29,741 nucleotides of DNA from IMG/VR virus record IMGVR_UViG_3300042861_000896, positions 1-29,741 of that record. The stretch is one strand, 5' to 3'. Position 1 is the first letter of the stretch; each line of letters opens with the position of its first letter. The DNA comes from a virus. Below are positions 5,797 through 23,823 of the stretch, in pieces. Position numbers and translations under genes: made by a program. Below the pieces are notes generated by a model that did not search any database, had not been told where the DNA came from, and saw nothing but the letters and a program-made list of their open reading frames with translations.

Positions 5797-6662
5797 TACT
5801 TGTAAGATATTTGACTTGGTGCAATAATGAATTGACTAACCAAGTGAGTTGTTGATGTGTTATCTAATATATGTCTTATCTTAGCATCCTTAGCTCTTAT
5901 TGTAGCTTTCTTGAAACTTCTAAGTCCATAGTCCATATTAGCTTGATTAACCACTTTATCAATTGATAAACTCTCACAAGTTGTATTGAACAATGGAACT
6001 TGAGAACTCTTCTCTAAAGCCCAGAATGTATTATACTGATAGAAGTTATCACTCTTAGTGTAAGTGATTGTTTTACTATCAGTATTGAATATAGGATATT
6101 GATTGTAAGCTTGTAAATTATTTAATGGTTTAGCTACTAATTCTAATATACCAGAACTCTGTTGTCCATTATATATAATAGCTTTATTAAACCATTTATC
6201 ATTTGTTTCTATTCTTGTGTTAATACTATATACACCATCAGGTATAGAAAGATATTCATATGCCTTAGTATAATCCATTACGTTCTGTAATAGCTCATCT
6301 TGGAATTTATATGCAAATGGATACTCAATAATATATGGTTCTATGTTTCCATAGAATGTATTATAGTTTTGTACATTAAGAGAGTGTGCCCATACACATC
6401 CTGTATTAATTTGCACTAAACTTATATTTGCAAAGTCTGATACAGTTATCTCTTCAACATTAACACTCTTTTCTGCTTTACATTTACCAGTAGATTTAAT
6501 AGTGATGATTGTAACATCATTATCTACAATATAACTAATTCCTTTTACAAGATCTCTTTTAGGTACGTTCTCAGCTATTATATTTCCAAATTGGTCATAG
6601 ATAGTGAAGGGTCCTGCACTAGGTCCTGATTCTTTTAATTTTATGGCTATAGTCTTTGACAT
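5796..6662 (-). CDS. Tail nozzle C-terminal-domain-like protein with N-terminal GPF module
   Basis: A longer start at 6677 (MEFVN...) overlaps the upstream gene by 14 bases. I chose the ATG at 6662, one base after the upstream TAA (TAATATG), because MSKTIAIKLKESGPSAGPF then aligns with the N-termini of the two paralogous modules at 16734 and 17297; this gives 288 residues. Residues 1-70 are that module (GPF..Y...STGKC). The remainder, with ITYTKSDNFYQYNTFW and QANMDYGLRSFKKATIRAKD, resembles, from memory, the C-terminal end of the very large nozzle/muzzle-type proteins of crAss-like phages. In those it is continuous with the propeller chain; here it is a separate gene directly behind the nozzle gene. 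It likely assembles with the 1798-residue protein. Role is inference from this resemblance and adjacency. Confidence 0.6.
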   Translation of the reverse strand: MSKTIAIKLKESGPSAGPFTIYDQFGNIIAENVPKRDLVKGISYIVDNDVTIITIKSTGKCKAEKSVNVEEITVSDFANISLVQINTGCVWAHSLNVQNYNTFYGNIEPYIIEYPFAYKFQDELLQNVMDYTKAYEYLSIPDGVYSINTRIETNDKWFNKAIIYNGQQSSGILELVAKPLNNLQAYNQYPIFNTDSKTITYTKSDNFYQYNTFWALEKSSQVPLFNTTCESLSIDKVVNQANMDYGLRSFKKATIRAKDAKIRHILDNTSTTHLVSQFIIAPSQISYK

Positions 6663-6663
6663 A

Positions 6664-9600
6664 TTAACAAATTCCATTATTAGTTAATGTTACATCTGCT
6701 GGTGTACTTGGACAACATCTAGCACAGAAAGTTACTGATGAAGGTCCTCCTCCTGCAAGTCCAACGTTTATACTTGCTGGTGTTCCTGTACAATCTGTAT
6801 AAGTTACTGCCACTACACCCACTGTAGATTTAATAGCAGTGTATGAAATACAAGGTGTTACAGTGGTAGTGGTTGTGCTAGTTGGGAAACATTGTTCCAT
6901 ACTAACAATTATTCCACCTACTACTTCATAAACTGTTCCAGTGCTTGAACTCTCATCTGTGAAATACCATCCATCAGGAATCACTGAACAATCTGTTTCA
7001 TAATTAGGACCTGCATAAATTGTAGATCCAAGAGAAAGAGTTGAATAACTTCCTACTATAGTAATCACTACAGTGTTTGGTGGAATAGTATTTAAATAAG
7101 TCATTGCATTACAAGCATCTAGTTGACTACCTGTTGACTCAACTCCTATAGGAATTGATGTTATATTATATCCAATAGCAAAATCATTTTGATTTAGATT
7201 TTCAGGTCTTACACAAGGTGGAGGTGCTGGTCCCACTGTAATCACACCAGTACCATCTAATGCACAATAAGTAAATCTAATAGTTCCTGCTAATTCACAA
7301 TCATATGGAGATATTGTTGTTGTTGTTGTACTTGTTCTAAAAGTATTCGATGTTGTTGTAGTTGTTGTTGTTGGTCCATCTGGAACTATTGGTCCAGCAA
7401 CAAAATCAAAATCATCACAGCATCCATTGATTCCTGAATAGAAGAAATTATTTTCACCCATATAGAAATTAGGAATATAACTATGAAAAGAAATCCAACT
7501 TTGTGTATTGAAATTATATGATGCTGTCCAAGACTTATCACAGAAGTATTCTGGATCTTTTAAACTCACAACGGTTCTAATTGGTGAACTACCAACTACA
7601 GGTGTTTCTACATAGAATTCTTTTGTATCATAATCATACTTAACATCAGGAGTAAGAGGAATATAATCAAGTTTAGTTATTATGATTCTCTCATATCTAT
7701 TATCATATACACCATGTAATCCAACACCATTGAAATTATTATCTGTATCAACTCCTGGAATAGTAACCATCTTACCATTCACCATAACAGTTTTACTTGG
7801 GAAGTATGTTAATATTTCAAATGATAAATGGTTTGTAAAGAAGTTGTTCATACCTGAAGCAAACGATGTAAGATCTTTAGCTCCTTCACCTGTAAGTAAA
7901 AAGATCTGTCCTCTCTTAGCATCTACAGTAACTTGTCCTTGAGGGATTTTTAATAAGAACTTATTCTGACTTCCTACATATCCAAGATCTGTTTCAGCAA
8001 AATCTACAGGAGGTGAACTTCTAAATAAAGAAGGATTACCTAAATAAGCAGCTTGTGGATTACTTGTATCAATTGTAAGTAATGTGTTATACAATAAAGA
8101 TTTGTTCTCAAACCTAGCTAGAATAGCTTTGTTTTGAATACCATCTAATGATATAAGATTTCCATAGTTTTGAGGAAAGTCAAAATATGAAACTGCTCTA
8201 TATGTTAACCAGCTATTAATTCTATTATCAGAATCTATGTTTTGAGAATCTGAATAGATTGTTCTAAATGGATAGTATGTAAAACAGAAATCCTTTCTCC
8301 AGTCAGCTGGTAAATGTGTAAACACATTTTCTTTATTCTGTTTTGAATATGTTACATTGTAGTTGTACGTATTATCAAATGCAATAGATACATAATCTTC
8401 TTGTACCCAATCATCAGGAATACTTGTGCTTACGTGTGGCCAGAAATCACCTTCTCTATTATTGAATGCTTGTCTAAGATCTGTATTGTAAGAACTCTCA
8501 CAATAGAAGTTAGGAATACCATATGCAAACAAATAGAAATATCCATTATAATATGTTCTATCAGGATTATCTTGAGCAGGGTAACTAGGAGTTGATGTTG
8601 GTCCAGGTTCTTGACTGTTAGGACAATCAAAGTTATGAGCTTTGTATGAAATAACACTTGATAAAGTACCTATAGTTGGTACTGTATAATCTGCAAGAAT
8701 AGATCTAGCAGAGTGCCAGTATTTTGGATAGGCTATGTTACCAATCTCATCATAGAATATGTCACTATCATCAGGAGCATTAACTCTGTTATCAATAAAG
8801 AATGGTAGCTTTGTTTTGAATGTGAATCTAGAAATAAATGTATCTCCACCAAACACTACATCATTTCCTGATGTTGTTGAGTTAATAGATGATTGATATC
8901 CTGTATCCACTGTACTATATGTATATATTTGTCCCCATTGATTTGGAATTATATTCTTCAATGAAGCATAATAAGATACAACACTAATGTCTTGTTCTTT
9001 AGCTGGTTTAGCACATGCACCAGTTTCACCAATAGTAATTCTAGATTTTTCTGTAACAATAGGAACTCCTCCTACAATCATACTAGGACTATTACTTGGT
9101 AATGGTAATGGTGGTACTGCTGTAACACCATCTTCTCTAACATCTATTGTTTTTAAATAAACAGATGATTCTCTTCTGTAATTATTAATAGGAGCATTTT
9201 TTAATCCATCAGGAGTCATGATAGTATCACCAACAGACTGAACACCAGGAATAAGATATCTGTATATATCAAGCATTCTTTGTTTGATACCTTGTACACC
9301 ATTAACTGTAATGTTATTACCTATACCTGCACTATAATTATAATCAGCTATTGAGTTATATGAATATGCATAGTTTCTTCTTGTAATACCATTAATATAA
9401 ATAGTTAAATAAGATTGGTATACAGTGAACATTGCTGTTGCACTAAATCCATATCCTAAACCTCCTATTACTTGTGAACTAGTTAAAGCATCTATCTGAG
9501 CTTCTTTTGTAAGAAGTTTATATTTAGCATTACTTCTCACTTCAACAAAGTGACCAAGTCCTTTACCAAACATTACATTCTCAAGCTTTAATACATCACC

Positions 9601-12060
9601 TAAGAATGGTTGTCCAAATGATGTTTCAGGAGAATTAAATATTTGTCTATATGCTAGTTCTGGTTTAGTAGATATGCCAGTTTGAGGAAGTTCTTTTGTA
9701 CAAGCATCCACTCTAACTGCATTATTAAAAGTGATAACCTCATTTCCTGCAGCATCTCCACCTGATATATTAACAGGAGGTTGTGAGGGAGGTCCTGATA
9801 AACAATTTAAAAGATAAGTTGCTCCACCAAAAATTCCTCCAGCTACCCATTGTTCTTTATATCCTTCTACAGGATCTGTCCATGCTGCTCTATATCCAGC
9901 TTTTCCAGTTCCAATATCAGTTGTACCAACAGCAACACGATACACATCATAATTAGATGGTCCTACATTCACCTTTGTTCCAGGAGTAGCTGTTTCATTT
10001 CCTCCTTGATTAGTACTCATTCTATTGAATGGTCCAGGTCCTTGTGGTATAGGTCTACTAATAGAACATAATACTTGTCTACCTAATGTAGTGTATTTTA
10101 TTCTATCTAATTTATTAGTATTACAATCAGTATATTCAACCTCTGCGTAAGTAGGAATACCTGTTAGAGGTAGATTAAATTGTAATATATCAATATTCCA
10201 TGGTTTACATATATCCTGCCAAGCATTGTTTGTTTCGTTTAGGAATGGATCATCACCAACCACTTCATTATATGGATAGTTTGGATAGTAGTAGTATTGT
10301 CCTTCTCTTTCATAAGAGTTAACATTACGAAGAATTCCTTTAGCTACAATAGATTTATTTGTACCTCTATTACCTCTAATGATTTTAAATCCTGCTATTT
10401 CGCTTTTCTCATCATCAGTTAGATTAGAATTGTATATTAGGTTTGATATCTGCCCTTTGTCTATTTTAAGACCAATAGGAAATACAGCATCATTACCCAT
10501 CACCATTGATGTAGCACTTGTAAATATTTTTGACTCAGTTACAGGAGAAACTAATACATCTGGAAACTTATGATGTCTTATTTTTTTACCTGCTAAGTCA
10601 CCCCATACATCTACATTACAAGGGTATTCTTCTATAGATTCCCAATAAGCCATTTGACCATATTGCCAAGGTCCTTTATAACCAGGATCTGTAGAATAAC
10701 CTGGAGAAAATCCAGTTACAGAAGCTGTGTTATATATTTTCCAATAAGGACTATAGTTTGTACCTGGTTCAGGATTACCTATGAAGTCAGCACTTGTATC
10801 AGGAATATTTGGTTGAGACCACTCGTTCCAGTTTTGTTCTCTACCAGGAATATGGAAACCATCTGTTTGTTTTCCATTCTTTAATAAAAACACTATTTCA
10901 AATGCATACACCTCATCACGTAGATACCCACGTAAGTTTGTAGCATTCAATTCATCAGCATAGTTTTCTGTAGCAGGGATTCTATATGTTTCCCATTCAA
11001 CAGTTATTTGATTAGCTATTGATTGATAGTTAAGTCTACTAATAGATGTAAGATTATCCCATACAAGAATGTCTTGTACAGAGGTAACATCTTGAGCTAT
11101 CTCGTAATAAGGAAACTTTTCAAATATATCATTGATAGATAATTGTATTGAAGTTTGATCACTTCCAGTGTATGTAACTTGATCAGTAGGTTGTTCAATA
11201 AAATATGTACCTACCAACTCTACAGATGTACCATTATTAATTGTTTTGATTACAGCTAAGTTGTAGTATTGAAACTGTCCTGTAGTATCAAGATCTTTTA
11301 TATCTACAATAATAGATTTATTAACATTAGTATTGAAATTAACTGTTGTTAATTGCTCATCTATTATAGGTGTAGGATTGGTAACTGAGTAATACGATGT
11401 ATAACCATTACCTGCAGCATCAGAATACTGTATAGCAAATTGATAAGTTCCTGATATAAGTTCTCCTCCATTTCTCACTTCATTAATTGAAAGTTGAGGA
11501 ATAGTGAAATTAGGTTGTATTTTAATTTGATTACAATCTAGTTGGTCTGTATATATAGGATTACAAAGATCTGAACCAGATTGTAGTAAGTAAGGAATAT
11601 TATTTAAATCTAAATATCTTCTTGCATTAAGTCCATCTGTCCAATATATTTCTATAGTACAATTAGTTATCTTATGTACCACTTTATGTATTGGGTGATT
11701 TAAATTAAAATTTAAACATGGAGCATTAACTAATGTGTGATAGATACAATCACCATTATCCATATATCCTATCTCTGAATCACCACTTATTGGATTGTGA
11801 AGAAAATATATATGTTTGTTTTTTTCATTAATGAAATGAGTACCAATCAATAAATAAGACTTTGGAAAAGTAACACACAGGTCATTACCTAACTCGTTCT
11901 GATAGTTAATTATATTACCATCAAAATTCTCAACATTAGCATTTAATGCATACGTTAGTGACCCCTGTTTAACTTGATTGATAGAACTATCTAAGTTTAA
12001 TCCAGTGGTTGCACTATTTAAATTTGGAGTTATATTACTCTTTGATTGTTCTTCAGCCAT
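6664..12060 (-). CDS. Giant tail nozzle (muzzle)-type protein with Thr-linked C-terminal modules
   Basis: 1798 residues, the largest gene in the window. The N-terminal 1550 residues are beta-rich with repeated aromatic/Gly strands (KHIYFLHNP, IEIYWTDGLNARRYLDL, TYQFAIQYSDAAGNGYTS) as in propeller-like tail nozzle proteins (T7 gp12 or P22 gp10 type, 'muzzle' in crAss-like phages). After SFHSYIPNFYMGENNFFYSG a Thr/Ser linker starts (about 1563-1585), then a module ending DGWYFTDES...GGIIVSMEQC (to about 1724), a second Thr linker, and a final Cys module with VTYTDCTG. Those two modules have relatives in the 361-, 636- and 275-residue proteins of the display region. The following gene looks like the missing end of the nozzle fold. 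It sits five bases after a ring-type protein gene, the usual neighbourhood of the nozzle gene. Nozzle assignment is from order and fold character. Confidence 0.65.
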   Translation of the reverse strand: MAEEQSKSNITPNLNSATTGLNLDSSINQVKQGSLTYALNANVENFDGNIINYQNELGNDLCVTFPKSYLLIGTHFINEKNKHIYFLHNPISGDSEIGYMDNGDCIYHTLVNAPCLNFNLNHPIHKVVHKITNCTIEIYWTDGLNARRYLDLNNIPYLLQSGSDLCNPIYTDQLDCNQIKIQPNFTIPQLSINEVRNGGELISGTYQFAIQYSDAAGNGYTSYYSVTNPTPIIDEQLTTVNFNTNVNKSIIVDIKDLDTTGQFQYYNLAVIKTINNGTSVELVGTYFIEQPTDQVTYTGSDQTSIQLSINDIFEKFPYYEIAQDVTSVQDILVWDNLTSISRLNYQSIANQITVEWETYRIPATENYADELNATNLRGYLRDEVYAFEIVFLLKNGKQTDGFHIPGREQNWNEWSQPNIPDTSADFIGNPEPGTNYSPYWKIYNTASVTGFSPGYSTDPGYKGPWQYGQMAYWESIEEYPCNVDVWGDLAGKKIRHHKFPDVLVSPVTESKIFTSATSMVMGNDAVFPIGLKIDKGQISNLIYNSNLTDDEKSEIAGFKIIRGNRGTNKSIVAKGILRNVNSYEREGQYYYYPNYPYNEVVGDDPFLNETNNAWQDICKPWNIDILQFNLPLTGIPTYAEVEYTDCNTNKLDRIKYTTLGRQVLCSISRPIPQGPGPFNRMSTNQGGNETATPGTKVNVGPSNYDVYRVAVGTTDIGTGKAGYRAAWTDPVEGYKEQWVAGGIFGGATYLLNCLSGPPSQPPVNISGGDAAGNEVITFNNAVRVDACTKELPQTGISTKPELAYRQIFNSPETSFGQPFLGDVLKLENVMFGKGLGHFVEVRSNAKYKLLTKEAQIDALTSSQVIGGLGYGFSATAMFTVYQSYLTIYINGITRRNYAYSYNSIADYNYSAGIGNNITVNGVQGIKQRMLDIYRYLIPGVQSVGDTIMTPDGLKNAPINNYRRESSVYLKTIDVREDGVTAVPPLPLPSNSPSMIVGGVPIVTEKSRITIGETGACAKPAKEQDISVVSYYASLKNIIPNQWGQIYTYSTVDTGYQSSINSTTSGNDVVFGGDTFISRFTFKTKLPFFIDNRVNAPDDSDIFYDEIGNIAYPKYWHSARSILADYTVPTIGTLSSVISYKAHNFDCPNSQEPGPTSTPSYPAQDNPDRTYYNGYFYLFAYGIPNFYCESSYNTDLRQAFNNREGDFWPHVSTSIPDDWVQEDYVSIAFDNTYNYNVTYSKQNKENVFTHLPADWRKDFCFTYYPFRTIYSDSQNIDSDNRINSWLTYRAVSYFDFPQNYGNLISLDGIQNKAILARFENKSLLYNTLLTIDTSNPQAAYLGNPSLFRSSPPVDFAETDLGYVGSQNKFLLKIPQGQVTVDAKRGQIFLLTGEGAKDLTSFASGMNNFFTNHLSFEILTYFPSKTVMVNGKMVTIPGVDTDNNFNGVGLHGVYDNRYERIIITKLDYIPLTPDVKYDYDTKEFYVETPVVGSSPIRTVVSLKDPEYFCDKSWTASYNFNTQSWISFHSYIPNFYMGENNFFYSGINGCCDDFDFVAGPIVPDGPTTTTTTTSNTFRTSTTTTTISPYDCELAGTIRFTYCALDGTGVITVGPAPPPCVRPENLNQNDFAIGYNITSIPIGVESTGSQLDACNAMTYLNTIPPNTVVITIVGSYSTLSLGSTIYAGPNYETDCSVIPDGWYFTDESSSTGTVYEVVGGIIVSMEQCFPTSTTTTTVTPCISYTAIKSTVGVVAVTYTDCTGTPASINVGLAGGGPSSVTFCARCCPSTPADVTLTNNGIC

Positions 12061-14253: not shown

Positions 14254-15468
14254 TTATATTCGAGTTTCAAACTCTGCTATTTTACCTAGATTAAGATCAT
14301 AGACTAAAGCAAGAGCAGCACGTACTGAGTGTACGAAGTTATTATCTAAGTGCCATCTGTCTGTACCAGACAAGCTAGGCATTTGTTGTATTCTTACTCC
14401 CTTTACCTCTTTAGCCATATAGTGATGTTTATCACCTGTATGTACCTCTCTATAAACAGCATCACCAAACTGATGACTATATTTAGGATGTGTTGCAAAT
14501 AACAATGGTAAGTCTTCTAACTTACAATTACCATGGTGCCATCCAATAAATGTATTTCCTAATGTTAATCCTTTAACAACTGAATGTTCTCTTGTAAACT
14601 CTACATCTTTTGCATCACTGAAATAAACATCTAATGCATGTGCTAAGTAAAAAGATTTAGTTCTGTCATGATTACCTTGTACTAAGACTACGTGCACAGT
14701 GCTAGAATGTTGTCTCAACATATTGATTGTATCTACAAGAAGAGCAAACCCCACTTCATATTCATCAGCATAATCCATTATAGTGTCCTGTGGAGTACCA
14801 TTTGTAGTTTGATGTTGATAGTTATCAGTGTGGAAGAAATCGTTCGATATAGGAAGCACTACAGTGTTTATATTGTAATTAGCTTCCACTTTTTCAATCA
14901 AAGACTGAGCCACATTAAAATATCTTAAAGCTCTAGTTGTTGGATCATTATCACCATCTACAGTTTTCTTAGCTAAATGATAATCAGATATAGATATTTC
15001 TACATCTACATAATCTTTATTACCAGTAAGTTTTGTTTTGGTAATTGATACATTATTTGGTTTGTAGTTTTGTAAAAACTTAGCAAAGTCCTCAGGTGAG
15101 TAATCTTTTGCTTCTTTCTTCTTAGAGAAGACTGAGGAAGTGAACTTCCCACTTGGTAACATCTTAGACCAGTAGTTTGTTATAACATACTTATCTAGGT
15201 TTATCTTATGTAGCTTAGCTAGTTCAATATCATCTTTAGGTTCAAAGTCTGTGACTATTGTACTTTCTATTGTACCTCTCTCAACATTTACTTTGCGTTC
15301 TCCTGTGTAGTTTGTTAATACAGGTTCTGTATCTTTTTCTTTAAGCTCCTTCATGAGCTCATTGACCTCAAATTCACTTATTCCTAGTTTCTCAGCATAG
15401 AATTTTTTACTTTTCTTCTGACTTAATAACTCTTCTAATCGGTGTAACAAGCTTTGATTTTCAGACAT
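14254..15468 (-). CDS. Calcineurin-like metallophosphoesterase with N-terminal helix-turn-helix-like segment
   Basis: 404 residues. The metallophosphoesterase motifs occur in order: D162-x-H164 (ISDYH), N209-D210 (PISNDFFH), G265-N-H-D268 (QGNHDRTK), H311/H312 (GWHHGN), and H343...H348-H349 (HTGDKHH), in place of the usual GHxH. These residues normally bind two metal ions for phosphoester cleavage. About residues 21-42 (KKFYAEKLGISEFEVNELMK) look like a helix-turn-helix, so a nucleic acid substrate is plausible. It opens the second transcription unit behind a terminator and promoter and is the only clear enzyme in this structural block. It may act on DNA during packaging or maturation, or on nucleotides in the host; I cannot tell which. 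A five-codon ATG...TGA frame at 15461-15478 overlaps its start. Confidence 0.8.
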   Translation of the reverse strand: MSENQSLLHRLEELLSQKKSKKFYAEKLGISEFEVNELMKELKEKDTEPVLTNYTGERKVNVERGTIESTIVTDFEPKDDIELAKLHKINLDKYVITNYWSKMLPSGKFTSSVFSKKKEAKDYSPEDFAKFLQNYKPNNVSITKTKLTGNKDYVDVEISISDYHLAKKTVDGDNDPTTRALRYFNVAQSLIEKVEANYNINTVVLPISNDFFHTDNYQHQTTNGTPQDTIMDYADEYEVGFALLVDTINMLRQHSSTVHVVLVQGNHDRTKSFYLAHALDVYFSDAKDVEFTREHSVVKGLTLGNTFIGWHHGNCKLEDLPLLFATHPKYSHQFGDAVYREVHTGDKHHYMAKEVKGVRIQQMPSLSGTDRWHLDNNFVHSVRAALALVYDLNLGKIAEFETRI

Positions 15469-15648: not shown

Positions 15649-16734
15649 TTAGCATATAGTATAGTCTGCAAGTTGAATTACTCCATTAATATTAACTCTA
15701 GCACTATAAGTAATTCCAGATGTAAGTAGTTTAAAATGATAGAAGTCTCCATCACCTGGAAGTACTGTTGTCATTGCAGCATCTAAATATATAACATCTC
15801 CTGCATTAGGTGCTCCTGTACCACTTATCCAACAAGATGTAGGCATTGATAATGGACAAGCATCACCTGGATCAGATGTTGCTGAAATAATACCTTCTTC
15901 TATACATGGTCCACCAATTGTAATTGTTCCTGTTCCACAAGTAATTTGAGGAATTACACTTACACTAGGTCCAAATAATACACAAGTAGTAAATAGTGAT
16001 CCTGTAGGAATTACATAATCTATACGCTGAGTTCCATTACATTCTGTATATGATATTCTAACACCACTTGGCTGATCTATACATTCAGTAGCAGGATCAA
16101 ACGTTACATTATAACATCCTACTAAAGAATCTATACAAATTGAATTATAAAGAATTACATCAACACCTGCAGTACCAATTGCAGAACCTTCTAATGCACA
16201 GAAAAGATAAGTCTCAACTCCAACAAGTTCATAAGATTGTGGATCTCCATTACAATCAATATAACCAACCTCTCCAGTTCCACCATCTAAAGTTGCTTGA
16301 TAAGTTACACATGCTAGTGTAGTAGTGGTAGTAGTAGTAGTTGGTGCTATTGTAGTAGTACTAGTAGATGTAGATGTAGATGTACTAGTAGATGTGCTTG
16401 TAGATGTAGATGTGCTTGTAGAAGTACTTGTACTGGTTGATGTAGAAGTACTTGTACTAGTAGAAGATGTAGTTGATGTGCTACTACTACTTGTTGTGGT
16501 AGTTGTAGGAATTAAATTGATATTTATATCAATATAATTTGTACATCTTCCTGTAGATTTCACTCTAATTATAGTTGTACCTTCAGGAACTACTATTGAT
16601 GTATAACCAGCGGTTAAAGCAGCTGCAGATATACCTGTTTCAAATGGTGTCACATACCCACCTACATTTGAATAAAGATCAAAAGGACCAGCATCCCCAC
16701 CAGGTGGTATAATTAATGTTATTAATGCTATCAT
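15649..16734 (-). CDS. Modular virion display protein with 64-residue Thr/Ser linker
   Basis: 361 residues. Residues 1-75 are a 'GPF' module (AGPFDLYSN...VKSTGRCTNYIDI), paralogous to the N-termini of the 181-residue protein and of the nozzle-end protein. Residues 76-139 are an almost pure Ser/Thr tract, largely alternating ST. Two small Cys modules follow (CVTYQ...GYIDCNG and CYNVTF...SYTECNG), then a C-terminal module (about 280-361) with ACPLSMPTSCW...GDFYHFKLL...RVNINGVIQ, related to modules in the 1798-, 636- and 275-residue proteins. There is no signal peptide or membrane segment. It is the last gene before a terminator. The likely role is an exposed fibre or decoration that binds host or environmental surfaces, with the N-module as virion anchor; this is inferred from architecture. 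Confidence 0.65.
   Translation of the reverse strand: MIALITLIIPPGGDAGPFDLYSNVGGYVTPFETGISAAALTAGYTSIVVPEGTTIIRVKSTGRCTNYIDININLIPTTTTTSSSSTSTTSSTSTSTSTSTSTSTSTSTSTSTSTSTSTSTSTSTSTTTIAPTTTTTTTTLACVTYQATLDGGTGEVGYIDCNGDPQSYELVGVETYLFCALEGSAIGTAGVDVILYNSICIDSLVGCYNVTFDPATECIDQPSGVRISYTECNGTQRIDYVIPTGSLFTTCVLFGPSVSVIPQITCGTGTITIGGPCIEEGIISATSDPGDACPLSMPTSCWISGTGAPNAGDVIYLDAAMTTVLPGDGDFYHFKLLTSGITYSARVNINGVIQLADYTIC
16318..16509 (-). repeat. Ser/Thr-coding minisatellite in the 361-residue gene
   Basis: About 190 bases of degenerate ACT/AGT/TCA/TCT-type codons encoding an ST-alternating linker, with short near-repeats such as GTAGATGTAGATGTACTAGTAG on the plus strand. Length variation by slippage or recombination is expected. 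Confidence 0.8.
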
Positions 16735-16751
16735 TTTATTATTTATTTATA

Positions 16752-17297
16752 TTAAGGTAGAGTTGTTGTTGTAGTAGTTGTAGGTGCTACAGTCGTTGTT
16801 GTTGTAGTACTTGGAGCAATAGTCGTTGTAGTGCTTGTTGTACAAATTCCTATAATAGACATAGGTTCACTACTAACTGTTACAGCTAATCCACAAAGAG
16901 TGTATGTACAAGATGGACTGAAACATGTATCACTAACTGTTTGTACAATTCCATCACAATCTATATACTCTGCTGTAAATGTAGTGGTGTAAGGATCACT
17001 TTGGAATTCATAGCAAGTATTAGCAATAGTAGTAGTTGAGGTTGTTGTACTACTTGTACTACTAGTTGTAGTGGTAAGTGAGTATAATGGTATATCAATA
17101 AAATTAGTACAATCGCCTGTTGATCTAACTCTAACTATTGTTGTATAATCAGGAACAAGTGCAGAAGGATATCCTGCAAGTAATGATGCTTTAGAAACAC
17201 CTGTTTCAAATGCTGATGTATATGCATCAAGATTTGAAAAAAGATCGAATGGACCTGTATCAGCTCCAGCCAAAGTTAATGTTATTAATACTGTCAT
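16752..17297 (-). CDS. Modular virion display protein with C-terminal Thr tail
   Basis: 181 residues. Residues 1-74 are a GPF module (TGPFDLFSN...VRSTGDCTNFIDI), clearly paralogous to that of the next gene, with conserved FETG and a Cys before NFIDI. A Thr/Ser linker (75-93) leads to one small Cys module (CYEFQ...EYIDCDG...CGL, about 95-152), and the protein ends in a Thr tail (153-181, closing TTTTTTTLP) with nothing behind it. Either the tail itself is functional or a distal module has been lost. Seventeen bases separate it from the next gene, which has the same N-module, so the pair looks like a tandem duplication followed by divergence. Probably a virion surface protein. Confidence 0.6.
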   Translation of the reverse strand: MTVLITLTLAGADTGPFDLFSNLDAYTSAFETGVSKASLLAGYPSALVPDYTTIVRVRSTGDCTNFIDIPLYSLTTTTSSTSSTTTSTTTIANTCYEFQSDPYTTTFTAEYIDCDGIVQTVSDTCFSPSCTYTLCGLAVTVSSEPMSIIGICTTSTTTTIAPSTTTTTTVAPTTTTTTTLP

Positions 17298-17312
17298 ATT
17301 ATTGGTTTTAAA

Positions 17313-17996
17313 TTAAATTGAACAAAGAGTAAATAAAGGATTAGTAATCCCATTATTGTTATCTGCTACTATTGATTGTGCACATATAGTTACCATAGTT
17401 CCACTATCTGGAATAATCAATTCTTGAAAAACACCTTCACAATTTATATAATCAACTACATGATATGTTCCTGGATTAAATATTGGAGGATAAACCTCTA
17501 CTGAATTACATAATGGAGGAGGAATAAAACTAGTAGTAGATGTAGTGGTAGGAGCAACTGTAGTAGTAGTAGATGTAGTGGTACTTGTTGATGTGCTAGT
17601 AGAAGTAGTTGTACTAGTAGATGTACTCGTAGAAGTACTAGTTGATGTGCTAGTACTAGTCGATGTACTACTAGAACTAGTAGTGGTTGTTGTAGGATCT
17701 GGAAGCTGATTAGCATTTCCAGTAAAATCACATATAGGACAACATATCTCTAACTGATTATATATATTTTCTATATCCTCTCCTATAATCATTAAATCTT
17801 CAGTGATGTTCATTACATCTTCTGTAAGTGTATCTACATTAGCTTGAGCAGTACATATAATAGCGTCAAACTTAGCAAGGATTGTATTTAATCCATCACA
17901 TGTATCCACATCTGTACAAGGAAGTGGAGTGCCATCATATGTGACAGCACTCGTTCCATGTATTGTTGTATTATTTACTTGAGAGCAATTTCCCAT
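17313..17996 (-). CDS. Modular virion fibre-like protein: coiled-coil anchor, ST linker, Cys module
   Basis: 227 residues. Residues 1-100 contain VTYDGTPLPCTDVDTCDGLN followed by a heptad-like stretch (about 35-83) rich in I, L, V, D and T, and CCPICD. The same layout opens the 636-residue protein (IVYDGPALSCTTAEPCDTLN...DVCCNV), so both share an N-terminal oligomerisation or attachment domain. Residues 101-157 are a Ser/Thr linker. The C-terminus is one small Cys module (LCNSVEVY...VDYINCEG...TICAQ). A trimeric, slender fibre is plausible from a short coiled coil plus stiff linker and small head, but no fold was verified. Confidence 0.6.
   Translation of the reverse strand: MGNCSQVNNTTIHGTSAVTYDGTPLPCTDVDTCDGLNTILAKFDAIICTAQANVDTLTEDVMNITEDLMIIGEDIENIYNQLEICCPICDFTGNANQLPDPTTTTTSSSSTSTSTSTSTSTSTSTSTSTTTSTSTSTSTTTSTTTTVAPTTTSTTSFIPPPLCNSVEVYPPIFNPGTYHVVDYINCEGVFQELIIPDSGTMVTICAQSIVADNNNGITNPLFTLCSI
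17526..17696 (-). repeat. Ser/Thr-coding minisatellite in the 227-residue gene
   Basis: About 170 bases of degenerate Ser/Thr codons, very similar in texture to the tract at 16318-16509 and able to recombine with it. Confidence 0.75.
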
Positions 17997-18014
17997 TTTT
18001 ATTGATTTTTAAAA

Positions 18015-19925
18015 TTAAATAGGTGCAACAGTTGTAGTGGTTGTTGTTGTAATTGCACAATCTCCTTTTACTGAACAATCTGAATATAGAATAGTGTATG
18101 TGCTATCTATAGAAGGTAAGTATATAGGTACATTGTTTTTATAATAAAACATTTGTATAGTTGGTATTGATGATACTTTAATACACCAACTTTCACTCTC
18201 TGCTACAGATGTATATGTACGATCTATCTCTGAATCATCACATCCACTATCTTTTGTAGTTCTTAAATAAACTGCCCCATTAGTTATACCAGGTGTAGTG
18301 TTTCCTGTAGCGTCATCTAAATCTGTTTGAGCTATAGTAACATTCATACATGTACAACTATAAGGATAAGCTGTTGTAGTGGTAGTAGTTGTAGGTACAC
18401 CTGTTGTAGTGGTGGTTGTACTTGAACTACTTGTAGAACTAGTAGTTGTAGTTGTTATATCACCACAATTTGTAATACTTACAATATATCCATCTACAAT
18501 TTCTGTTATTTCACAAGTCTCATGATCTGTAATGTAGAAACCATCAGCTAGTAAATCACAATTAGTTCCTGTTCCAGCGTAAACAAGTTGGCCAATAGCA
18601 AAAATAATACTTTGTCCAAATAGAGAAGTTTCAGCAGGTGCAAGTGGTAAACCATTTATATAAGCACATGCATTACATGCATCCGTTAATGAATCAGTAT
18701 AATTTACAACTCCTGAACCATCATCATACGAATTAAAATATTCTACAGTTATTAATCCTTCTGGTCTACATCCTGAATAAGGAGTAGTGGTTGATGTTGT
18801 AGTAGGTGCAATAGTTGTAGATGTAGAAGTTGTTGTGCTACTAGAACTAGTTGTAGTAGTTGTACCTCCACAATCTCCTTCTGAAGTAATAATTCCTAAA
18901 GAAATAGTAGGGAAAGTTTCTGAACAAAATAAATAAGGATTGTCAAAATCTCCAGCTGGTTGAGTTATTATTACGTGAGTATCACCTTCTCCACCACATT
19001 CATCCCATTCTATAGTCACTACAGTTTCTGGATCTATACCTGTAAGATTCCAACTATATTGTGTACAAGGAAATGCAGTGGTTGTTGTTGTAGTGGTAAC
19101 AGGACATTCTCCATCAATACAATTTGCTCCTATTGTAATAGTAACATTAGGACTACTAGCCTCTCCTTCAGATCCACAATAGCTTATAATCTCACCAGAA
19201 AGTATTTCAATTGGTCTACTATAACTACCATCACAATCTCTATAAGATATAATATGACTTACAAGACCTTCATTATTGAAAGTTAAACACTCACAAGGAC
19301 TTGCTGTTGTAGTAGTAGTGGTTGTAGGAACTATAGTAGTTGTTGTACTAGTTGTACCACAAGGACCGTTTGGTGTCACAATAACAGTTCCAGGAACAGT
19401 TAAAGGACTATCTGTTTCAACACAAATATTTGTTTCTCCTGGCAATAATACAATAGCTTCTGGTTCTCCTGTAATACAATCAGTAATGATTATAGCTACT
19501 GGATCTTCTCCTGTATTATCTAATGAGAAGCTTTCACAAAGAACTGGTGCAGCAGTGGTAGTACTAGTTGTAGTAACATTGCAACAAACATCTAATTGAT
19601 TGTTTATATTAATTATATCACCATTAATAGTTATTATCTGTGTAGTGATATTGTCAACCTGAACAGTTAATACATTAATCTGTGTTAATAGATTACATAT
19701 AATCTCATCAATCTTTTGTAATATCACATTAAGTGTATCACATGGTTCAGCAGTCGTACATGATAATGCAGGACCATCATAAACAATAGTGCTAGAAGCA
19801 GTTAAATTAGTACTACATGGATTGTCGTTACAACCACCATTAGTGATTGTAGAACTACATCCGCAAGGAGTATTTAAAACTACGTCTGTACAGCAAGGAT
19901 TTACTGGTAAATATGGATATGACAT
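18015..19925 (-). CDS. Large multi-module virion display protein with five modules and six Thr tracts
   Basis: 636 residues. Residues 1-117 are a Cys-rich anchor with a heptad-like segment (about 64-111), homologous to the N-terminus of the 227-residue protein. Then come modules separated by Thr/Ser tracts at 118-126, 191-208, 277-284, 355-382 and 491-518: small Cys modules at 129-190, 211-276 and 287-354 (for example CECLTF...SYRDCDG...YCG); a larger module at 386-490 (ACNACAYIN...GFYITDHE...GYIVSITNC), closely like the one in the nozzle protein; and a unique module at 523-625 with EIDRTYTSVAES. It ends in a Thr tail (TTTTTTTVAPI). It follows the tail-collar protein by 12 bases. An elongated surface fibre or decoration is the likely role. 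Confidence 0.6.
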   Translation of the reverse strand: MSYPYLPVNPCCTDVVLNTPCGCSSTITNGGCNDNPCSTNLTASSTIVYDGPALSCTTAEPCDTLNVILQKIDEIICNLLTQINVLTVQVDNITTQIITINGDIININNQLDVCCNVTTTSTTTAAPVLCESFSLDNTGEDPVAIIITDCITGEPEAIVLLPGETNICVETDSPLTVPGTVIVTPNGPCGTTSTTTTIVPTTTTTTTASPCECLTFNNEGLVSHIISYRDCDGSYSRPIEILSGEIISYCGSEGEASSPNVTITIGANCIDGECPVTTTTTTTAFPCTQYSWNLTGIDPETVVTIEWDECGGEGDTHVIITQPAGDFDNPYLFCSETFPTISLGIITSEGDCGGTTTTTSSSSTTTSTSTTIAPTTTSTTTPYSGCRPEGLITVEYFNSYDDGSGVVNYTDSLTDACNACAYINGLPLAPAETSLFGQSIIFAIGQLVYAGTGTNCDLLADGFYITDHETCEITEIVDGYIVSITNCGDITTTTTSSTSSSSTTTTTTGVPTTTTTTTAYPYSCTCMNVTIAQTDLDDATGNTTPGITNGAVYLRTTKDSGCDDSEIDRTYTSVAESESWCIKVSSIPTIQMFYYKNNVPIYLPSIDSTYTILYSDCSVKGDCAITTTTTTTVAPI

Positions 19926-19937
19926 GTTGTTGATTTA

Positions 19938-21050
19938 TTAAGGTCTGTATTGAATATAGTAACAACCTAATCCAGGTTGAAAGTTTGGATGTGATTCTCC
20001 TCCTCCTTGTGATGCTATTGTGAATGTTGTAGCTGCTGTTAATGTAACATTCTCAGCAAGTAAAGGTCCACCTGCATTAACTACTGTAACAAATCCATCA
20101 GATCCATTAGGTGTACGTGTAAATGAAGTTGATGTAAATCCTGGATTATTAGGAGTTATAGTATGTGTATGTGGATTAGGAGATATAGCAGTAGTAGCTG
20201 TACTACCAGGGTGAGCATGTGCAGGCATTTGTCCCACTGTTAATGTAACACCATTTGTACCTAATGGAACATTTAATGTGTAATTAGGATTACCAAGTGC
20301 TGGATCAACTTGAGGAGAATATGCACTACCACCAGGAACAGCTGTAACACCTACAGGAACTCTACCTCTTAAATCAGGAGTTCCATTTATTCCATTACAT
20401 AGATATATATTTACCCAATCACCAAGTCCTACTCCTGTACTAGAGAAATTACTCAATGGTCCAAAATATGGAACAACAGAATAAGGAACCATTCTATTAC
20501 TAATTAAATCATTAGTAGATGAATGTGTAGCTAAATAGTTAGCAATATAATTGTCTAACTCAACTCCATTACTTGAATAATTTGTTTGAAGATCTAGAGA
20601 AAGAGCTACTAAATTAACTTCTACTTGACATAACTTATTTATAACAGCTTGTACAATAGCATGTGTATCTGAAGATGATGTAACACCTGTCAAACACCCA
20701 ATTGAATAATCAGCATTTAATGTAGCAAGTGTAGCATCAATAGCATCTACTTGTTCTTGAAGATCACAAGCAGCTTCTATTAAAGCTTTTGATATATCTA
20801 CAATAGATAAGTCTTTACATGTAGGAAGATATTTATTTACAAGTTCACATACATCTATACCAGCTAGATCAATCTTCACTCCTGTACCATCTAATGTAGA
20901 TGTAAGGAATGTAATTAATGCTTGTTCTACAAAAGATAAGGAATCACCTGTTTGGATTCCTAGGACAGGAACATCTATTCCTGTATATTTAACACATCTG
21001 TCAGAGACAATCTCTGTACATCCGTTATAACAATTTGAGCAATTAGACAT
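19938..21050 (-). CDS. Phage tail-collar domain protein (receptor-binding candidate)
   Basis: 370 residues. The N-terminus is Cys-rich (MSNCSNCYNGCTE) followed by a helical segment (about 83-170) likely to trimerise. The C-terminal half is a typical tail-collar/'microcystin-dependent protein' domain: GDWVNIYLCNGINGTPDLRG at 211-230, RVPVG, QMPAHAH at 274-280, an HTHTI segment at 294-298, and HPNFQPGLGCYYIQYRP at the extreme C-terminus. In T4-like fibres, HxH pairs of this sort hold metal ions along the shaft, so metal-stabilised trimers are plausible. The rest of the neighbourhood is display proteins, so this is the best candidate for a classical receptor-contact fibre tip. Confidence 0.8.
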   Translation of the reverse strand: MSNCSNCYNGCTEIVSDRCVKYTGIDVPVLGIQTGDSLSFVEQALITFLTSTLDGTGVKIDLAGIDVCELVNKYLPTCKDLSIVDISKALIEAACDLQEQVDAIDATLATLNADYSIGCLTGVTSSSDTHAIVQAVINKLCQVEVNLVALSLDLQTNYSSNGVELDNYIANYLATHSSTNDLISNRMVPYSVVPYFGPLSNFSSTGVGLGDWVNIYLCNGINGTPDLRGRVPVGVTAVPGGSAYSPQVDPALGNPNYTLNVPLGTNGVTLTVGQMPAHAHPGSTATTAISPNPHTHTITPNNPGFTSTSFTRTPNGSDGFVTVVNAGGPLLAENVTLTAATTFTIASQGGGESHPNFQPGLGCYYIQYRP

Positions 21051-21071
21051 ATTATTTTATTTTTAAAAGAT

Positions 21072-21899
21072 TTAACAAGTTGGAAAAGATATAATAACAC
21101 CATTTGTTACACGAACTACTTGCCATGATCCTGGTGTTCCAGGAATATTAATTGCAAACCATCCATCAGCAGTAGCTCTAAAACAACCTGCTTCTTGTAT
21201 AAATAGTTGAGAGCCTATTGTAGGATTTGGAGTGTCCCACCAAGCTATTGTTACCCCATTAACAAAACATGTACCAGCATTTAAACAACTTACTGCTGCA
21301 CATGCTGTAGGTAAAGAAACTGTAAAATTAGAACCACCACCAGTATTTAGATTTTGACCTAAATTAATATTATAAGGATGAAATGGTGAACAAGTTGTTG
21401 TTGTTGTTGTAGTTGGTCCTGAAGTGGTAGTACTTGTTGTAGTAGAAGTTGAAGAACTGGTACTAGTAGTTGTACTAGTAGAACTAGAGCTAGTAGTTGT
21501 GCTTGTAGAACTAGAACTAGTAGTTGTTGTACTAGGTGCAATTGTACTTGTACTAGTAGTTGTAGGATTTGGTACAATTGTAATATCACAAGGATCCTCT
21601 AAACAACGTTCTGGTTCATTACACTTACTAACACATCCTACTGTTAAACGTATCACTCTACTAGCAATCATCTGAACAGAGTACTCATGTACGTAATTAG
21701 GATTACAATACTTATGAGTTAGTATTCTTCTGTATGTTATTAGCTGAAGAATTTCACCAGCAGGTATAGGTTTGTTCAACATATATGAAATATTGTTGTA
21801 CAAATTATTACCAAGCTCTGCTAACTTGCAATCTATTTTTTTAAGTAAAGAAGGAATGTTAGCACATTCTGGGCAATTTGTTAGTCTTGGTGATAACAT
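21072..21899 (-). CDS. Conserved structural anchor with Ser/Thr linker and C-terminal display domain
   Basis: 275 residues. Residues 1-110 have CPECANIPSLLKKIDCKLAE and LGNNLYNNISYMLN, then Cys-rich CVSKCNEPERCLEDPC; I recognise this as a conserved small structural domain of crAss-like phages that normally stands alone. Here it is extended by a Ser/Thr linker (112-169) and a C-terminal module of about 105 residues with SLPTACAAVSCLNAG, ATADGWFAI and VTNGVIISFPTC, related to the C-terminal module of the 361-residue protein and to those in the 636- and 1798-residue proteins. The design suggests a virion-bound foot that presents a surface module. Linker DNA at 21393-21566 is repetitive. Confidence 0.6.
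   Translation of the reverse strand: MLSPRLTNCPECANIPSLLKKIDCKLAELGNNLYNNISYMLNKPIPAGEILQLITYRRILTHKYCNPNYVHEYSVQMIASRVIRLTVGCVSKCNEPERCLEDPCDITIVPNPTTTSTSTIAPSTTTTSSSSTSTTTSSSSTSTTTSTSSSTSTTTSTTTSGPTTTTTTTCSPFHPYNINLGQNLNTGGGSNFTVSLPTACAAVSCLNAGTCFVNGVTIAWWDTPNPTIGSQLFIQEAGCFRATADGWFAINIPGTPGSWQVVRVTNGVIISFPTC
21393..21566 (-). repeat. Ser/Thr-coding minisatellite in the 275-residue gene
   Basis: Degenerate Thr/Ser codon tract of about 170 bases, with a locally repeated TAGTTGTACTAGTAGAACTA-like unit on the plus strand encoding alternating SSSSTSTTT blocks. Confidence 0.75.
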
Positions 21900-22653: not shown

Positions 22654-23823
22654 TTAAGGAATGTTTGTAGAAGTAGTAGTTGTTGTTGATGCAGGAGCAC
22701 TAGAAGTAGTTGTTGTAGTTGTGATACAAGGAATTCCTTGATCTACTACAGCACCTAAACCAGCAACTAAAATTGCTTCAAATGCAGAAGTTAAGTTACT
22801 TCCTCCATTAGGAACAGCAAGAATCACAGTAGAGTCTTCCATGATGTAATCACCCCATTGGTACTCAGATTTGTTATACTCGTTGAATTTAATGTAGAAC
22901 GTGTTGTAAGTTTCACCATCAGATACCCAAGATTCGAAGTTCTCGTTGTATCCATTCATTCTGTATAAGTGTTTCAAGTAACCTGCTTGGTAGCTGTAGA
23001 AGTTTTTCTCTAATTGAGCAATCTCTGCAGATGTACCAGTAGGATAAGAAGCACGTTGAGTGATGATAGGAGTAGCAACCTCATTACAAACATCAGCAAC
23101 GATAAAGTCAGCAGTAGTAGCTGGACCAGCATATACAAATGTTCTGAAAGATAGTCTATCATATTCAAATGGGAACGCTGCGATATCACAAGGTTGACCA
23201 TATTTAGTTAATGGTTTTCCTGTAATACGTAAGATTGTACCACCTACATTTTCAAATGTAAAGAATGTGTTGAAACTAATGTTATCAGGGTTGTTACCTG
23301 GAGCTTGTTGTCTCAATTTAGCAATCAATAAGTCGATGATAGTGTTATCACTTACATCAGCACATGGATTGTCATCACAGTTACAACATGGAGCTTGAAT
23401 AGTTACTGAACGAGTGAAACCATTGAAATACAATGTATCAATGTAAGAAGAGTGAGCACGTAAAGTTAACGTGATGCTTTCTCCACATTGTACAGTGAAA
23501 TTAGTTACATCAGTAATTTGGTTAGCAGCAGTTGGACAAGCAGAAACTTTGTACCATTCTGTTACGTTTGAATTACAACCAGATCCAGAAGGACATCCTT
23601 TGATCTTGTCAGATCTTTTAGAGCCTTGTAAATAAGTGTTTATTCTACCTTGAGCTATGTAGAAATAAGGAGAAGCAGCAATATTTGCAGCAGTAGCTAC
23701 AGAATAATCGCTTTTAAAAATTCCCACATCACCTTGAGCAAGGTTTTGTGTTGAGCCAGAGCTAGGGACAGCAGTTTGCCCTACTGGAACCACGAATAAC
23801 GTGGTTAATGAAAAATCAGCCAT
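22654..23823 (-). CDS. Abundant-type virion structural protein with C-terminal Thr tail
   Basis: 389 residues. The N-terminus (FSLTTLFVVPVGQTAVPSSG, about 3-22) opens a beta-rich domain; Cys clusters follow (CPSGSGCNSN and APCCNCDDNPC). The middle has DNTIIDLLIAKLRQQ and FFTFENVGGTILRITGKPLT, and the C-terminal domain has FYSYQAGYLKHLYRM and YNEYNKSEYQWGDYIMED-like aromatic strands. The last 23 residues are a Thr/Ser tail (ITTTTTTSSAPASTTTTT) with no module after it. It follows the capsid cluster and is separated from the next gene by a hairpin. A head-surface auxiliary or decoration protein is a reasonable guess; a tail role cannot be excluded. Confidence 0.5.
   Translation of the reverse strand: MADFSLTTLFVVPVGQTAVPSSGSTQNLAQGDVGIFKSDYSVATAANIAASPYFYIAQGRINTYLQGSKRSDKIKGCPSGSGCNSNVTEWYKVSACPTAANQITDVTNFTVQCGESITLTLRAHSSYIDTLYFNGFTRSVTIQAPCCNCDDNPCADVSDNTIIDLLIAKLRQQAPGNNPDNISFNTFFTFENVGGTILRITGKPLTKYGQPCDIAAFPFEYDRLSFRTFVYAGPATTADFIVADVCNEVATPIITQRASYPTGTSAEIAQLEKNFYSYQAGYLKHLYRMNGYNENFESWVSDGETYNTFYIKFNEYNKSEYQWGDYIMEDSTVILAVPNGGSNLTSAFEAILVAGLGAVVDQGIPCITTTTTTSSAPASTTTTTSTNIP

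Follow-up and report, generated by a model that had tools for sequence, protein, structure and literature searches.

A probable exchangeable display system built from a shared domain pool on several anchor genes and a split muzzle in crAss-like phages

Introduction

Phage host range is usually pictured as depending on one or two receptor-binding proteins. Here we analyse a 29,741-nucleotide stretch of viral DNA (IMG/VR record IMGVR_UViG_3300042861_000896, positions 1 to 29,741; hereafter the window), which by its gene content belongs to the genome of a crAss-like phage, and in which one pool of small domains is spread over several putative virion sites. The allocation of these domains differs between nearly identical strains of this abundant group.

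Tail-fibre domain mosaicism in modular receptor-binding proteins has been described by Smug et al. (2023; PMC10684548), and the locus studied here shares with those proteins the recent shuffling of domains in (here presumed) host-contact proteins and the combination of a constant N-terminus with a variable C-terminus. It differs from them in that at least six anchor genes of a single virion, the muzzle among them, draw on a common pool, and in that the units are tiny cysteine modules on threonine/serine (Thr/Ser) tracts, with turnover visible between genomes whose core genes are at least 98% identical. In phage phi-crAss001 (PMC10172136), the major capsid protein (MCP), the ring proteins R1 and R2, the IHF-like gp42 and the muzzle (gp44) are homologous to those of the window, and two head-fibre types and the tail fibres are separately decorated; in that phage, however, the muzzle is encoded by one gene and no linker-borne cargo has been described on it. 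The lectin tail fibres of zeta crAss-like phages, diversified by diversity-generating retroelements (DGRs; PMC12386605), also carry C-terminal lectin-like heads, some on Ig-like spacers, which vary among phages, whereas in the present group whole modules are exchanged and a reverse transcriptase of the RVT_1 type was found in 0 of 16 genomes. The domains Fib_succ_major (FISUMP, PF09603) and Lcl_C (PF07603) occur as terminal cargo in relatives and are absent from the window. Modular receptor-binding proteins are already known (PMC10684548); no earlier report of a pool common to six or more anchors, combined with a muzzle that is both split and decorated, was found in the open-licence literature.

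Results and Discussion

Organization of anchors, linkers and modules in the window

We consider it probable that the locus encodes an exchangeable display system, in which anchors stand in a fixed order, a shared pool of domains is mounted on Thr/Ser linkers, and the cargo is exchanged. At least five adjacent genes (encoding proteins of 275, 636, 227, 181 and 361 amino acids, aa) and the tail muzzle would each supply a conserved N-terminal virion part, and the Thr/Ser-rich linker behind this anchor would bear one or more small, independently folding domains from the common pool. The C-terminal cargo would be replaced, lost or traded between anchor genes in close relatives, with crossovers that commonly begin at the anchor/linker boundary or at a further linker and reach as far as the following linker or the stop codon; recombination between co-infecting relatives would be the most likely mechanism. 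The features of the window are given below, with proteins named by their length and profile E-values in brackets.

15649–16734, minus strand: fibre gene p361, with a c anchor, a 65-aa Thr/Ser tract and modules a, a and b
16519–16734, minus strand: module c (GPF, predicted Ig-like) of p361, aa 1–72 (9e-29)
16318–16512, minus strand: Thr/Ser tract of p361, aa 75–139, made of DNA tandem repeats
16135–16311, minus strand: module a of p361, aa 142–200 (4e-11)
15904–16116, minus strand: module a of p361, aa 207–277 (6e-9)
15673–15891, minus strand: divergent module b of p361, aa 282–354 (1e-8 with relatives; window-only test failed)
16752–17297, minus strand: fibre gene p181, with a c anchor, a tract, module a and a tract
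17085–17297, minus strand: module c of p181, aa 1–71 (2e-32)
16842–17018, minus strand: module a of p181, aa 94–152 (3e-6)
17313–17996, minus strand: fibre gene p227, with a d anchor, a 56-aa tract and module a
17721–17981, minus strand: anchor d of p227, aa 6–92 (3e-35; matches phi17:2 gp048 and the Lbo-JY46 tail fibre)
17529–17696, minus strand: Thr/Ser tract of p227, aa 101–156
17340–17510, minus strand: module a of p227, aa 163–219 (by profile)
18015–19925, minus strand: fibre gene p636, with a d anchor and modules a, a, a, b and m3
19560–19823, minus strand: anchor d of p636, aa 35–122 (2e-34)
19359–19538, minus strand: module a of p636, aa 130–189, proximal, in a conserved position (by profile)
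19119–19298, minus strand: module a of p636, aa 210–269, proximal, in a conserved position (by profile)
18870–19070, minus strand: module a of p636, aa 286–352 (8e-8)
18465–18698, minus strand: module b of p636, aa 410–487 (3e-22)
18051–18371, minus strand: module m3 of p636, aa 519–625, of a family missing from the preliminary description
19938–21050, minus strand: p370, with a d-type N-terminus (8e-10) and a tail-fibre-like C-terminus (phrog_8763, 2e-14), lacking a Thr tract
21072–21899, minus strand: p275, with its own N-terminal anchor (aa 1–111), a 58-aa tract and module b
21075–21323, minus strand: module b of p275, aa 193–275 (5e-13)
6664–12060, minus strand: p1798, the leading portion (aa 1–1544; crAss_MUZ, 6e-33) of a crassvirus muzzle that is split, with an appended tract and modules b and a
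7306–7377, minus strand: Thr tracts of the muzzle tail, aa 1562–1585
6889–7134, minus strand: module b of the muzzle tail, aa 1643–1724 (1e-26; predicted structure)
6667–6855, minus strand: module a of the muzzle tail, aa 1736–1798 (2e-15; predicted structure)
5796–6677, minus strand: p293, module c joined to the C-terminal muzzle portion, aa 94–291 (by profiles)
6459–6656, minus strand: module c of p293, aa 8–73 (4e-28)
22654–23823, minus strand: p389, a structural protein with a 20-aa terminal Thr/Ser tract (aa 367–386) and no module behind it

In the relatives inspected, p389 also ends in a tract at the same place, resembling an empty linker.

Homology of the modules

The copies of each module family in the window are homologous by profile search. 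Module a is present eight times (three copies in p636, two in p361 and one each in p181, p227 and p1798), module b four times (p1798, p636, p275 and p361) and module c three times (p361, p181 and p293), in agreement with the numbers and proteins named in a preliminary description made from the sequence alone. The two copies of d given there (p227 and p636) were recovered as well, and a third one at the N-terminus of p370 (8e-10) had been overlooked. The Thr/Ser tracts proposed to join the modules were equally evident, as in p361 (65 aa), p227 (56 aa) and p275 (58 aa), and m3, C-terminal on p636 in the window and found on p636 and p181 in relatives, adds a fifth family. The description had placed the system at 15649–21899, and the muzzle features at 6667–7377 and 5805–6656 fall outside that interval; the "nozzle-end protein" to which it assigned a copy of c does carry one, and is in fact p293, the C-terminal part of the split muzzle.

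Independent E-values of the a to d copies in the window ranged from 3e-6 to 3e-35, and identical profiles gave zero matches below 1e-3 in the reversed window proteins. Since the iterated profiles had taken in the window copies themselves, the independent test for a, b and c was a leave-one-out profile built from the remaining window copies and scored against 2000 shuffles of the omitted copy; the evidence for d consists of profile matches. All 2000 shuffles were outscored by every copy of c (3/3), by all but one copy of b (3/4) and by all but one copy of a (7/8). The exception for a, in p181, was beaten by one shuffle in 2000. The p361 copy of b failed with the window-only profile, 1628 of 2000 shuffles scoring equal or better, and it was recognised only through profiles of relatives (1e-8). 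No Pfam or PHROG family matched modules a, b or c, and the Thr/Ser-rich window proteins gave low-complexity hits only.

Constant anchors and mobile cargo among relatives

A scan with the MCP yielded at least 598 relatives in IMG/VR, the best 80 of these at least 598 showing 94–100% identity; all relatives are metagenome contigs, of up to 103–119 kb. In these relatives the anchors keep a nearly constant order, and the lengths of the proteins vary widely. When proteins were cut behind the anchor and at the tracts, and a family was defined as a cargo segment seen in at least two proteins, 35 cargo families were obtained, of which 16 occur on at least two anchors and 8 on at least three. Three of them (a, b and m0) occur on all six anchors, counting the muzzle; m0 is a FISUMP lectin-like family that includes Fib_succ_major-type heads and, having been joined by single linkage, may mix two related groups. 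The numbers of distinct module strings were 27 for p275, 41 for p636, 24 for p227, 18 for p181, 21 for p361 and 19 for the muzzle.

Sharing between genes was also observed for individual copies. In 158 cross-anchor module pairs, identity was 55% or more over a length of 45 aa or more, and for 103 of 674 module copies the nearest relative (in another locus, at an identity of 97% or less) lies on a different anchor gene. The p227 copy of a in the window, for instance, is 74% identical in amino acids and 85% in DNA to a p361 module of a relative (locus L104). The movement of modules between genes while anchors stay in place, which the preliminary description had proposed to look for, was therefore found. 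Its mix-and-match layout is supported by the sharing of families among anchors, with the qualification that swapping follows a gradient, proximal modules being stable and distal ones mobile. Modules 1 and 2 of p636 hardly ever cross anchors (2/144), those at positions 3 and beyond do so more often (19/120), and in the muzzle the first two modules are steady and the third is variable.

This gradient bears on an alternative in which a and b are disulfide-stabilised beta units that extend the stalk, comparable to the Ig repeats on other phages, and binding is left to other terminal domains or to none. Module a occupies position 1 of p636 in 50 of 62 proteins and position 2 in 46 of 57, with anchor change near nil; b is the usual second module of the muzzle (59/72), the third being variable; and four cysteines are kept in essentially all copies of a, as in a rigid spacer. 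But a and b are often the outermost modules, in the window on p227, p181 (where only a tract follows), p275 and the muzzle, and a is itself the exchanged unit in many cross-anchor cases. We regard this alternative as possible but somewhat doubtful; within the exchangeable display system, a spacer-like role would fall more to those a modules that are proximal and to module b of the muzzle.

Recent turnover and transfers at the DNA level

Cargo changes rapidly. Among locus pairs with at least 98% core identity (DNA of p187 and p404; only nine such pairs), the module string differed in seven of nine for p275, five of nine for p636 and seven of nine for p227. In loci L135 and L137, p187, the anchors of p275 and p636, p404 and p242 are 99–100% identical in DNA and the cargo is different: p275 has 375 aa in L135 vs 806 aa in L137, and a 167-aa head stands on p636 in the former and on p227 in the latter with 97% protein identity. 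The two genes match at 94% DNA identity over 593 nucleotides (nt), from the tract to the stop codon. Several transfers start at the anchor/linker boundary and extend up to the stop codon; p227 of L158 and p361 of L159, for example, share 92% DNA identity over 359 nt in this way. In total, 63 cross-anchor DNA matches reached at least 80% identity. In a tree of FISUMP-type heads, quickly built and with some weak branches, at least 12 anchor changes were counted vs a mean of 28.7 with shuffled labels, which indicates mostly inheritance plus repeated transfer.

Gene p370 shows only 70–76% DNA identity between loci (L135/L137, L120/L138 and L158/L159) in which p187, the p636 anchor and p404 are at 97–99%; p370 too therefore changes fast, in its case lacking a Thr tract.

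A number of observations weigh against an exchangeable display system, or restrict its extent. The nearest relative lies on the same gene for 571 of 674 module copies, and for all 12 window copies, so that exchange between genes is a minority event. Many anchors carry no recognised module (48/98 for p275 and 43/82 for p181), and cargo is therefore dispensable in some genomes. Module breakpoints fall in tracts in 428 of 552 cases vs 266 expected, an enrichment that is biased because low-complexity DNA self-aligns, making tract ends poor markers. Finally, a Foldseek search of the PDB with the predicted model of the b and a modules returned nothing significant. The same-gene figures would also fit an old duplication within the genome followed by vertical descent, the paralogues staying in their own genes and anchors never being exchanged. 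Such a history is very unlikely, as the 63 cross-anchor DNA matches contradict pure vertical descent and the 167-aa head is 97% identical on two different anchors in loci whose core genes are 99% identical; only if every such pair were an assembly chimera would the contradiction fall away.

Metagenome contigs and tandem-repetitive tract DNA are also the setting in which short-read assemblers could have fused unrelated heads to anchors at the Thr/Ser tracts. The tracts, however, offer little for such errors: in the 100 cross-anchor cases open to this test, no other place in the locus repeated the upstream tract exactly over more than 23 nt, a length under common assembly k-mer sizes, and the tracts were no longer than 60 nt in 60 of 103 cases. 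Pairings of anchor and module moreover recur in several non-identical contigs. An assembly artefact is thus a quite improbable source of the pattern as a whole, and chimeras of co-occurring strains may account for individual cases.

Nature of the cargo and probable place of the anchors on the virion

Among the anchored proteins of relatives, the cargo included Fib_succ_major in 20 of 87, and Lcl_C, propeller and collagen domains in others. Fib_succ_major and DUF1566 (now Lcl_C) are reported retroelement targets with ligand-binding potential (PMC4159848), and by analogy with the lectin-like, propeller and other domains borne on the same stalks in relatives, the distal domains may be binding heads. 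Their most likely use would be the binding of glycans or other cell-surface structures, and shuffling would then probably let the phage change its adhesion target, altering or widening the adhesion of the virion. Of the families in the preliminary description, c and d are mainly anchor-side domains, c being mostly an N-terminal one and not a head.

The presence of reported DGR targets among the cargo of relatives could point to a retroelement with lectin-fold targets, of the kind known from reports on zeta and epsilon crAss-like phages, as the source of the variation. The 16 genomes without an RVT_1 match are of 103–119 kb, and the same search recovered the annotated reverse transcriptase of crAssE-Sib, whose record has an annotated pair of template and variable repeats (TR/VR). 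The changes, in addition, are replacements of whole modules and not point hypermutation, all of which makes a DGR extremely unlikely here. The group offers a natural data set on which virion parts need to fit the host, on the pace of head turnover and on the ways in which retroelement-free phages track changing surfaces.

The model of modules b and a was predicted with high confidence (predicted local distance difference test score, pLDDT, 92.5), b as a helix with strands and a as an all-beta domain of about 60 aa. It has to be noted that the alignment set the first cysteine of the a-only rows on the last cysteine of b, and the model was thus built on a slightly imperfect alignment. No solved structure matched module a or module b significantly, so that their function gains no structural support; a Foldseek search of BFVD gave a single match under E 1e-3, a protein of an uncultured phage. 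Virtually every copy of a contains four cysteines, and b contains two or three, which suggests disulfides. Modules a, b and c, none of which bears a Pfam or PHROG name, could serve as small domains of a presumably disulfide-stabilised kind. Apart from its c module, p293 was poorly predicted (pLDDT 55.6 for the whole protein and about 90 within c), and module c looks weakly Ig-like, being linked to Ig domains at a Foldseek E of 0.13 and a probability of 0.8–0.9. PDB sequence searches with p293, p1798 and one relative's protein with a lectin-type head gave nothing significant.

As for position on the particle, profiles place anchor d in two annotated proteins, the virion structural protein gp048 of phi17:2 and the tail fibre of Lbo-JY46, and a location of d on the tail is therefore likely. 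BLAST of anchors c and d against cultured phages returned only insignificant hits, and d was recovered by profiles; no relative of p636 and none of the p361 cargo was found in cultured phages. The tail fibre of phi-crAss001, gp22, docks on a collar, and two fibre types (gp21 and gp29) decorate the head of that phage (PMC10172136); neither c, d nor the p275 anchor matched gp21, gp22 or gp29 in sequence. The p275 anchor has no link to an annotated virion protein, and c, linked only via the muzzle half p293, appears to be tied in this way to the muzzle.

A split and decorated muzzle

The muzzle is a single gene in crAss001, Lbo-JY46, phi17:2 and crAssE-Sib. In profile searches, residues 1–1544 of p1798 and 94–291 of p293 map consecutively onto the single muzzles of Lbo-JY46, phi17:2 and crAssE-Sib, and these three cultivated muzzles run through the junction via a short loop (TGI/TGV to LWSH/VWSH). 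Both parts could be seen in 82 loci, a set chosen largely by similarity to p293 and not wholly independent, and in all of these, as in the window, the muzzle is in two genes; the first half carries an extension, usually a tract with modules, and the second half begins with module c. An extra gene lies between the halves in 4 of the 82 loci and is of the c type in both cases inspected. Module b as a query retrieved mainly muzzles from this clade, judging by their contigs. The split muzzle is a lineage trait, compatible with membership in Crassvirales, and it illustrates that a central tail machine can tolerate both a break and a decoration.

The simplest reading would be the insertion of a stretch resembling a junction between fibre genes, that is, linker, heads, stop, start and c. 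A fuller proposal, which we advance tentatively and with slightly less confidence than doubt, is that a fragment of a fibre-gene pair of this composition entered one muzzle loop and divided an essential protein of the tail tip into two co-assembling chains, bringing the tip under the same head-swapping as the five fibre genes. Recombination, and not a retroelement, would then give the clade combinatorial variation at up to six display sites.

Two further observations concern the muzzle region. In phi17:2 gp043 (locus L245), about 340 extra residues at approximately aa 1752–2092, with no match in Pfam, lie between the parts that match p1798 and p293, shortly before the split junction. In locus L241, an open reading frame (ORF) at 4786–5325 that resembles by eye a GIY-YIG endonuclease directly precedes a muzzle gene that is nearly free of cargo behind its tract. 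Endonucleases of the GIY-YIG type can drive local recombination.

Lineage of the window and neighbouring genes

The main genes of this 29.7 kb virus-record fragment all lie on the minus strand, in the order portal, p422, MCP (p520), p322, p243, p389, p187, p275, p370, p636, p227, p181, p361, p404, R2 (p242), p159, R1 (p324), muzzle p1798 and p293. The portal C-terminus and the MCP (phrog_11589) were named by profile matches, and p520 was identified as the crassvirus MCP by a profile match to crAss001 gp32 (2e-170). Iterated profiles against phi-crAss001 matched p242 to R2 gp40 (3e-51) and p324 to R1 gp43 (2e-30) and detected a homologue of the IHF-like gp42; the R4/R5-like match of p243 was weak (1e-3 only). 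The muzzle match of p1798 is to PF25731 (crAss_MUZ). The window thus presents Crassvirales traits: the MCP, and several ring proteins and a muzzle in the tail block.

By muzzle and MCP, the nearest named relative is Lbo-JY46 (L244, PP438436.1), recorded from the cyanobacterium Leptolyngbya boryana, and other relatives by muzzle infect Flavobacterium and Cellulophaga. Tissierellales was rejected as a host label; it came from a single contig of a metagenome-assembled genome in a genome collection, probably a binning error, and thus gives no host evidence. The well-conserved p404 (14254–15468), located between the fibre genes and R2, has no Pfam match and has a homologue in Lbo-JY46 (2e-108). Some relatives have, between the MCP gene and p322, a small ORF that the window lacks, with seven cysteines among its roughly 145 aa, as in L019 (10233–10667), L023 (7343–7789) and L025 (11885–12331).

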